The notes beneath the pieces are model-generated. The model was not told the DNA's origin and did not search any database. It saw nothing but the letters and a program-made list of their open reading frames with translations. Positions 62,795 through 64,000 of a stretch of 64,000 nucleotides of DNA are shown here, one piece after another. The stretch covers positions 1-64,000 of the forward strand of contig NZ_CP029480.1 in the NCBI RefSeq assembly GCF_003258705.1, in the 5' to 3' direction. This stretch comes from Arcticibacterium luteifluviistationis (GTDB taxonomy: Bacteria > Bacteroidota > Bacteroidia > Cytophagales > Spirosomataceae). Both the position numbers and the translations under genes were made by a program. Numbering within the stretch: position 1 is the first letter of the stretch; the number at the start of each line of letters is the position of its first letter.

Positions 62795-62868
62795 GGTCTG
62801 GTAGTTCAGTTGGTTAGAATACCTGCCTGTCACGCAGGGGGTCGCGAGTTCGAGTCTCGTCCAGACCG
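62795..62868 (+). tRNA. tRNA-Asp (anticodon GTC)
   Basis: A complete cloverleaf: 7-bp acceptor stem GGTCTGG/CCAGACC, D-arm, anticodon stem CCTGC/GCAGG with loop CTGTCAC giving anticodon GTC, and T-arm with GTTCGAGTC. The discriminator base is G73; CCA is not encoded. It has its own promoter and a strong hairpin after it. Confidence 0.97.
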
Positions 62869-62872
62869 CTAC

Positions 62873-62916
62873 AAAGAGTCGCAAATAGCTAATTATTAGC
62901 AATTTGCGACTCTTTT
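62873..62916. terminator. terminator hairpin after tRNA-Asp
   Basis: A perfect 14-bp stem, AAAGAGTCGCAAAT (62873-62886) with ATTTGCGACTCTTT (62902-62915), and an inner GCTAAT/ATTAGC stem inside the loop, then a T run. Very stable; suited to end the tRNA transcript, and it is nearly symmetric. Confidence 0.85.
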
Positions 62917-62925
62917 ACTTTTAGG

Positions 62926-62947
62926 TTAGCCCGTATTTAGCCCATAT
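62926..62947. repeat. tandem 11-bp repeat next to tRNA-Asp
   Basis: TTAGCCCGTAT then TTAGCCCATAT, head-to-tail with one mismatch. It lies 58 bp after the tRNA 3' end. It could be a recombinase arm or attachment site of an integrated element, though no matching copy can be checked inside the window. Confidence 0.45.
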
Positions 62948-62949
62948 CT

Positions 62950-62987
62950 ACTAAAATTCAAAAAAAACAAAATACTTGAATTTTAGT
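62950..62987. repeat. 12-bp inverted repeat
   Basis: ACTAAAATTCAA (62950-62961) with TTGAATTTTAGT (62976-62987), perfect, 14-nt A-rich spacer. It could be a regulator or recombinase site, or a weak hairpin. Confidence 0.5.
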
Positions 62988-63157
62988 TCTCCAACATTAC
63001 TCATCAAAGCAAGCTTGCTATGTTTAGAAAGCCTACCTTATTTCCAGAAAATGAAATTTCAAGCCAAACTTGACAGCTCCAGCTCCTGCCAGCTACTAGC
63101 ACAAAAGATCAATCCAACTCAAAATCATTCCTACCTACACAAACTCTGTAAACACCT

Positions 63158-64000
63158 ATGTCTAATATTGATGAAGAAATAAACATTCTAAACAGTTTGG
63201 ATGACGAATTCTACCCCCGATATGAAGAGAATGACCTGATAAGTGATGATATCCTAAAAAAACTATTCAGACACTCCAAGAAACCTTTAAATTCCAATTT
63301 CTACAACGGGATCCTAAGAGATATCCACACCTACTTGGTAAATCAAGAAAATGACTTCCTAGACGAAGATGATGCGTTAGACCTCAAAATAGCTATCGCA
63401 AATTACCAGCTCCAATTGTCTCGTATAATATATAGGTTGGACTACTATGGCATAAAAGTAGGCATACAATGCTTGCGAATGCTTTCTCAGCATAGCCCCA
63501 ATGACACCCAACTAAAGAAAAGCATCCCAAATGAGCCTAGTATTGAACCTAGTTTTCAAAAAAACTGGATAGAACCGAGTATACCTGAACTTCAAAAAAA
63601 CTTTAACCACAAGGCCTTTTTGAAGACAACAAAACTCTTAAAAGAGTTACTTGAACTAAAGGAATTATTAAAATTCGATAGCAACTTTTTGTGCCTGGCA
63701 AATTGGTTTCTTGATGATTTCCTAAAGTGTCCAAATTTTCAACTTAGCCTTTCTGTACCTGACCATGAGAACCCTTATCCAGATATTTTTGAAAAAGGCT
63801 TTGGCTGGGCAGTATTTAGCAACTATGTCCAAAACCATAAATATGGGGTTTCTAATGCTGTTTTTAGCTATTTATTTAGGCAAATGCTCTCTGATGGCTA
63901 CATACGTAAAAGACTATCACATATAGATTTTGAAAATTGGATTTGGGACGTTTACAAAATTAGACTCTCAAGAATTAAGACCATGCGAGAAATAGGTTTA
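63158..64000 (+). CDS. partial hypothetical protein, open at the window end
   Basis: An open frame from the ATG at 63158 to the window end, 281 codons without a stop, so the gene continues beyond 64000. The product has no signal peptide or transmembrane segment, is rich in Asn, Ser, Lys and Asp, begins MSNIDEEINILNSLDDEFYP, and has a Leu/Lys-rich central helix (about 150-170, LKTTKLLKELLELKELL) likely to be a coiled coil. No family is recognised. It follows tRNA-Asp by about 290 bp and a cluster of repeats, so it may be the first gene of an integrated element. Confidence 0.75.
   Translation, partial: MSNIDEEINILNSLDDEFYPRYEENDLISDDILKKLFRHSKKPLNSNFYNGILRDIHTYLVNQENDFLDEDDALDLKIAIANYQLQLSRIIYRLDYYGIKVGIQCLRMLSQHSPNDTQLKKSIPNEPSIEPSFQKNWIEPSIPELQKNFNHKAFLKTTKLLKELLELKELLKFDSNFLCLANWFLDDFLKCPNFQLSLSVPDHENPYPDIFEKGFGWAVFSNYVQNHKYGVSNAVFSYLFRQMLSDGYIRKRLSHIDFENWIWDVYKIRLSRIKTMREIGL

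Follow-up and report, generated by a model that had tools for sequence, protein, structure and literature searches.

The junction behind the tRNA-Asp gene at the end of the window raises the question of whether an integrated element begins here and whether the gene that follows, which belongs to no recognised family, is cargo or part of the machinery that moves such an element. The window is the whole stretch of DNA analysed, positions 1–64,000 of a single-contig genome of 5.38 Mb (G000), so coordinates run on past 64,000. The features at its right end are:

62795–62869, plus strand: tRNA-Asp (GTC), the predicted integration target (ARAGORN; Rfam RF00005, 67.9 bits)
62854–62869, plus strand: putative attachment core on the tRNA side, GTCTCGTCCAGACCGC, 16 bp that form the 3' end of tRNA-Asp
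62873–62915, plus strand: hairpin behind tRNA-Asp, arms 62873–62893 and 62895–62915, 95% complementary
62926–62947, plus strand: tandem 11-bp repeat TTAGCCCGTAT/TTAGCCCATAT, copies 62926–62936 and 62937–62947, 10/11 identical
62950–62961 and 62976–62987, no strand: 12-bp inverted repeat, a possible operator
63158–64075 (window part 63158–64000), plus strand: ORF1, an open frame of 305 aa with its stop at 64075, beyond the window

The tRNA-Asp (GTC) is the only tRNA that ARAGORN found in the 64-kb window and the only match to Rfam; genome-wide it is the one complete tRNA-Asp match, with one further match in G000 that is a 76% partial. An earlier, sequence-only reading had described a complete tRNA-Asp followed by a stable hairpin, a tandem 11-bp repeat, and a 12-bp inverted repeat, and we recovered all four. 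The hairpin folds at −24.5 kcal/mol (z = −7.4), was equalled in stability by 0 of 200 shuffles, and was not flagged by a simple terminator scan. When two-letter repeats are left out, the 64-kb window contains just one other tandem locus of this kind. The inverted repeat is present and not special, since the window holds 16 positions with 12-mer inverted repeats.

That reading had also taken the junction for the possible edge of an integrated element, and the DNA beyond position 64,000 bears this out. An exact second copy of the 16-bp core lies at 89004–89019, whereas the chance expectation for a 16-bp direct repeat is ~3e-5 in 60 kb on both strands, even base use assumed. A twin of the 11-bp tandem lies at 88871–88892, and the pattern TTAGCCCNTNNTTAGCCC has exactly two sites in the 5.38 Mb, at 62926 and 88871, against 0 for the reversed control pattern. 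An integrase gene, which the earlier reading had advised looking for past 64,000, lies beside these second copies at 87646–88866, at the far end of the 26 kb that separate the core copies, and the genes between are not only housekeeping genes. The 26-kb stretch has a GC content of 33.5%, compared with 37.5% and 37.6% on its two sides and 37.0–37.9% across 44 overlapping, equally long windows of the flanks. For an empty-site comparison we used 30 tRNA-Asp loci, our own and 29 from relatives, with the genus represented by one genome; the immediate neighbour genes were not found beside tRNA-Asp in the 29 relatives' loci, most of them seen with ~1.5 kb of flank, and the second gene on the left side had one match among them, at 22%, in L078. 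With its borders and genes read from the sequence, the tRNA-Asp junction is almost certainly the left end of an integrated element. We consider it highly probable that this is a 26-kb mobile island with its own tyrosine integrase, a replication gene, defence genes, and ORF1 in a shared core module. Behind ORF1, its genes are:

64112–64321: HTH gene of 69 aa, excisionase-like by eye, assigned by position and eye rather than by profile
64431–66167: HUH rolling-circle-type Rep (PF23343 REP_ORF2-G2P, 5e-9)
66411–66656: ribbon-helix-helix gene, its product with a hydrophobic tail (~1e-5 for CopG and Arc-type models; Pfam below cut-off, PHROG at most near it)
67237–68085: protein without assignment
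68484–70565: HSDR_N and N6-methylase in one 693-aa protein (Pfam, PADLOC)
70694–72028: HsdS (Pfam, PADLOC)
72030–72887: protein with weak HsdS-type PADLOC matches
72928–74364: protein without assignment
74636–75499: AbiH, its start disturbed
75763–77133: McrC
77126–79453: McrB
80074–84658: three-gene STAND operon, read from 84658 down to 80074
80074–82500: nSTAND1–FtsA fusion of 808 aa within this operon (nSTAND1 PF20703 over residues 10–220, 3e-28; FtsA PF14450 and PF02491)
85919–87418: protein without assignment
87646–88866, minus strand: tyrosine integrase (PF13102 and PF00589 over cut-off; PHROG integrase, 1e-21)

Fifteen island proteins besides ORF1 were scanned with Pfam (8 matched over cut-off and 7 did not), and six were scanned against PHROGs, where the matches were of integrase, replication, and repressor types only. 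The integrase aligns with four relatives at the R, HxxR, H, and Y motifs, which we take to be the catalytic-type motifs of tyrosine integrases. ORF1, the HTH gene, Rep, and the ribbon-helix-helix gene form the core block, and cargo begins behind Rep. Besides the HSDR_N/N6-methylase protein and HsdS, we found no separate HsdR among the island proteins scanned. The AbiH-type gene (74364–75499) has its N-terminal start in another frame and looks frameshifted, possibly inactive. A stretch of ~1.26 kb (84660–85918) that separates the STAND operon from the gene after it gave no convincing ORF and no Rfam match.

ORF1 had been described as an open frame of at least 281 codons from 63158 with no recognised family, and both points held. 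Within the window the frame has 281 codons without a stop, and the complete frame encodes 305 aa. Its first 280 residues matched nothing in Pfam or NCBIfam at E ≤ 1, as was the case for Pfam with all 305, and it had no match in PADLOC or PHROGs, in plasmids, in 50,697 phage records, or in pattern-limited IMG/VR scans. An AlphaFold model of the window part of ORF1 only was uninformative (pLDDT 36.5). Three PDB-profile matches to glutathione transferase (E 0.12) were taken as chance, and this candidate was dropped.

The element could be followed through its Rep, which a two-row alignment found in 20 of 222 genomes of the same family, G000 included; a search of 375 genomes of the phylum gave two weak matches besides G000. 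We compared the surroundings of 20 Rep places together with G058. Rep scored >500 bits in seven loci besides G000, namely G058 (genus g20), G808, G060, G813, G046, and G021 (g22), and G033 (g34). Fourteen loci (L159–L172), with Rep at <310 bits and no G000-type integrase at 1e-10, are outside the family counts; in G005 and G819, Rep is weaker (<310 bits) yet matched over most of its length. An integrase of the G000 type was present in five of the seven loci (G058, 7e-94; G808, 3e-105; G060, 1e-73; G046, 4e-96; G033, 5e-93). The G021 locus has a different integrase-like gene, by eye and judged from its start. At the G813 locus, ORF1 is truncated to 145 aa, a gene resembling an insertion sequence was noted by eye, and the contig stops at the place expected for int. 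At the G058 locus the integrase is 39% and Rep 43% identical to those of G000. G000 and five of the six related loci looked at (all but G060) have a small HTH gene of a single type separating ORF1 from Rep, and G021 has another ORF at this position. Ribbon-helix-helix genes were found by phmmer in four of the seven related loci (G808, G060, G813, G033) and by eye only in G058 and G046. Judged from these gene neighbourhoods, the elements have in common a module made up of integrase, ORF1, small HTH gene, and HUH Rep.

A relative of ORF1 was first found in G058, which with G000 itself made 2 of 99 genomes of the same family. A two-row alignment searched against 390 genomes of the order returned G000 only, which says little because G058, a sure match, was apparently outside that draw. 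Against an 8-sequence database, relatives gave E-values of 5e-10 (G058), 2e-9 (G813, truncated), 2e-6 (G046), 4e-5 (G033), and 5e-5 (G808), and no recognisable ORF1 was seen in G021 or G060. The seven sister loci thus hold a weak relative at the ORF1 position in five, from three sister genera, and an unrelated gene or none in two. Conservation is concentrated in a C-terminal region of ~90 residues, and a profile of this region built from five rows (G000, G058, G808, G046, G033), run against every ORF of the loci, picked up the G813 piece, which had no part in the profile, at 5.5e-12. Compared pair by pair across five elements, the identities (minimum, median, and maximum) are 16, 19, and 32% for ORF1, 38, 40, and 55% for Int, 46, 54, and 61% for the HTH gene, and 37, 42, and 52% for Rep. 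Within a stable module it is therefore ORF1 that changes fast.

These comparisons argue against the earlier suggestion that ORF1 is the first cargo gene. Because its relatives, recognised through weak matches, sit in the integrase/HTH/Rep module of other elements, ORF1 more probably belongs to the core genes of this element family. That it is cargo, for example a defence gene, beside the attachment site by chance would fit its position as the leftmost gene of the element and the two of seven sister loci with an unrelated gene or none there. In five sister loci, from three other genera, its relatives nevertheless adjoin the HTH gene and Rep, in four of them coming directly behind int, and ORF1 has no PADLOC match, so we regard this reading as quite unlikely. 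We tentatively propose that ORF1 might be an element-specific regulator of excision and replication, because four sister loci have it placed between int and the HTH gene, it keeps its C-terminal region, and it diverges much faster than Int, HTH, and Rep. RteC of CTnDOT-type elements is thought to regulate excision. Elements with RteC (PF09357) and the G000 element are both from Bacteroidota and both have a gene proposed to regulate excision, and ORF1 has an RteC-like size, an analogous place beside mobility genes, and a by-eye likeness at the C-terminus. It is nevertheless very improbable that ORF1 belongs to the RteC family of the CTnDOT-type elements of Bacteroides, as we found no significant sequence relation: PF09357 is unmatched in the genome at E ≤ 1, a profile of 19 RteC proteins matched ORF1 at E 0.11 with a negative score (2-sequence database), hhalign gave a probability of <1% with one, two, and five sequences, and the ORF1 C-terminal profile reached a best E of 0.046, not significant, against the 19 RteC proteins. 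RteC was set aside as ORF1's family, being unsupported on sequence.

Four further elements could be delimited by direct repeats that overlap a tRNA 3' end:

G033: tRNA-Ser, 25-bp repeat, 31.1 kb
G808: tRNA-Ser, 15-bp repeat, 43.7 kb
G021: tRNA-Leu, 25-bp repeat, 48.8 kb
G046: tRNA-Arg, 15-bp repeat, 32.5 kb

In G058 and G060, tRNA-Ser-like ends lie upstream of int, by eye, with the tRNA genes outside the DNA examined. The order in G033, G808, and G046 is tRNA, core, cargo, ribbon-helix-helix gene (by eye in G046), Rep, HTH gene, ORF1, Int, core. The G000 order differs, with the ORF1–HTH–Rep block next to the tRNA and Int by itself at the opposite end, across attP from ORF1; in a circle, Int and ORF1 would therefore point away from attP in opposite directions, and a circular permutation plus an inversion would be needed to relate this order to that of the sisters. 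Behind the integrase-side tRNA-Ser-like end of G058 (L122:14620–14700) we noticed, by eye, a terminator-like hairpin and another arm repeat, which suggests that this tRNA carries two elements in tandem.

The ends of the elements share two further features. Each of the five delimited elements, G000 included, has a hairpin behind its tRNA-side core (−17.8 to −25.3 kcal/mol; the shuffle control covered the G000 hairpin only). In G000 the other core copy is followed by a different, strong hairpin with a T run at 89025–89056. In G019 and G014, where no such element was found within 1.5 kb behind the tRNA, a terminator-like hairpin by eye lies directly behind the tRNA, and the right hairpin of G000 is for this reason probably the chromosomal terminator and the left one element-borne. 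We infer that the hairpin at 62873–62915 is a terminator carried in by the element.

The second feature is the paired repeat. With up to one mismatch, TAGCCC-n5-TAGCCC occurs at exactly two sites per 60-kb stretch in G000, G033, G046, and G808, with start-to-start offsets of 59–79 bp to the tRNA-side core and 126–134 bp to the integrase-side core. In G021, whose integrase differs, both ends carry another 11-bp tandem, TGTCACAATTT. G060 has an integrase of the G000 type but no arm repeat of the TAGCCC-n5-TAGCCC kind, and G813 and G058 have one such site each, not tied to any core. Because the repeat type tracks the integrase type, we read the paired 11-bp repeats as likely arm-type binding sites of the integrase.

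In the cycle that we propose, the tyrosine integrase (87646–88866, minus strand) would recombine the 16-bp core, and the tRNA would stay whole because the core is identical to its 3' end. The 11-bp repeat pairs at both ends would bind the integrase as arm-type sites, Int and the HTH protein may excise a circle, Rep may copy the excised circle, and Int would re-insert it. The element would thus appear to work like the int–xis–rep module of actinobacterial AICEs, without recognised transfer genes. In most AICEs (e.g., pSAM2) a tyrosine integrase inserts into a tRNA 3' end, and int, xis, and a rolling-circle rep lie in one module, with tandem insertions known and a circular permutation of the usual module order reported for one AICE (parts of PMC3218068). 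The likeness is in gene make-up rather than in compared proteins, with the element's int and Rep recognised by profile and its xis-like ORF by position and eye. The differences are an extra gene, ORF1, between int and xis, a Rep of the REP_ORF2-G2P type, a Bacteroidota host, and defence genes in the cargo. The transfer gene of AICEs is of the TraB/FtsK type, and none was recognised by Pfam among the 15 island proteins and ORF1, 7 of the 15 being without a match over cut-off. Within the Bacteroidota, the 10K genomic island of Riemerella anatipestifer is likewise bounded by a direct repeat at a tRNA and was shown by experiment to be moved by its own tyrosine integrase (part of PMC6764341). That island is 10 kb long with a 53-bp repeat adjoining tRNA-Arg, and the parts of PMC6764341 on which we draw describe no ORF1–xis–Rep module.

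How the element would pass between cells could be read in other ways. Phage satellites carry int, xis-like, and rep genes and defence cargo at tRNA sites. The element, small and integrated with an integrase, a replication gene, and variable defence cargo, resembles PICI and P4-like satellites in this load, and the fast divergence of ORF1 could fit a helper-sensing regulator. We nevertheless think it unlikely that the element is a PICI-type satellite or a decayed prophage, packaged by a helper phage and not conjugated: no packaging gene was recognised, with no capsid, portal, or terminase match by Pfam in ORF1 and the 15 island proteins (7 of the 15 without a match over cut-off), and ORF1 and Rep are unmatched in the 50,697 phage records, with no relative in the pattern-limited IMG/VR scans. 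Relaxases occur among HUH enzymes, and the element may alternatively be an IME or the remnant of an ICE in which the HUH Rep serves as relaxase and the circle is moved by a conjugative element resident in the same cell. A distant Rep relative does occur on the Spirosoma taeanense plasmid pTS (L152; 31% identity over 58%), but PLSDB types this plasmid as non-mobilizable, the best family of Rep is REP_ORF2-G2P rather than a relaxase family, and the 15 island proteins scanned, only 8 of which match Pfam over cut-off, include no recognised coupling protein or mating-pair gene. We thus find an IME or ICE remnant rather unlikely. The free 28-kb plasmid pTS also carries a tyrosine recombinase gene.

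The cargo of the island includes the STAND operon (80074–84658), which encodes proteins of 164 aa and 544 aa and the 808-aa nSTAND1–FtsA fusion. TIGR01174 covers positions 3–370 of its 371 in the fusion, at 150.5 bits, below the curated cut-off of 175.85. Compared with the FtsA of the host, encoded at 4570967–4572292, the FtsA half shows 59% identity (57.6% by another alignment), lacks an 11-residue stretch near the FtsA start, and keeps the C-terminal tail. In a 30-row tree it groups with host FtsA and with G019, G044, and G058 at 100/100 with the inner order unsettled; its branch is long, and long-branch joins may be false. With the whole 808-aa protein as query, the genome-collection scan returned nothing, and among the matches listed for 150 genomes of the family there was no other protein spanning NTPase and FtsA. 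An N-terminal alignment in a pattern-limited scan of 84,980 genomes found 17 relatives of the NTPase half, none with FtsA, of which L030 and L035 run off their contigs with the C-termini outside view. One of these relatives has an LRR C-terminus by Pfam, and the variable C-termini and upstream genes of the others were seen by eye. The operon has the features by which we would characterise nSTAND1 conflict systems (PMC8195603, PMC7159879), namely an nSTAND1 NTPase, a variable C-terminal part, and an adjoining variable-effector gene.

It is possible, if on the doubtful side, that the fusion is a bacterial immune receptor with an integrated decoy. Its FtsA half would then bait phage proteins directed against cell division, much as plant NLRs contain copies of the proteins that effectors target. 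In a variant of this reading, the FtsA half of the activated receptor would itself jam division. Cell-division domains (MinD/ParA-like, FtsK, and FtsZ) are listed as effectors of vWA–MoxR conflict systems in part of PMC7159879 and therefore lend support to the rival reading that FtsA is the effector, and part of PMC12169576 proposes for bNACHT25 and DnaJ that a bacterial NLR relative guards a host process. We found no description of a STAND–FtsA fusion in open-licence PMC papers.

Defence genes were also detected in the sister elements, where 20 selected proteins, a part of the cargo, were scanned with PADLOC at 1e-8 (5 of the 20 without a match). The matches included Cas10 and Cas7 of type III-D with HsdM, HsdS, and HsdR in G033; HsdM, HsdR, and an McrB-like protein in G021, with HsdS by eye only; a type IIG enzyme and an SNF2/PLD-type helicase in G046; HsdR and HsdS in G058; and HsdM in G060 and G813. 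A kinase of G808 matched the PD-T4-6 and mad6 models, which is weak evidence of defence, as kinases may match these models in general. The type III-D CRISPR effector genes and the type I restriction system of G033 lie within its 31.1-kb element (L174:9890–18494, L158:256–7323). By eye, the 43.7-kb G808 element (L177/L178) carries a long apparent copper/heavy-metal resistance run with an efflux pump and P-type ATPases.

One junction thus leads to a defined element family of eight loci in one Bacteroidota family, all with the HUH Rep and most with the integrase, ORF1, and the small HTH gene, for which we found no description in open-licence PMC papers. Within it, ORF1 marks a new protein family, and in four loci an identical 11-bp arm code stands at either end. 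The signature of arm repeat and tRNA end offers a direct route to such islands and to new defence genes in their cargo, for which the STAND–FtsA receptor is one lead.
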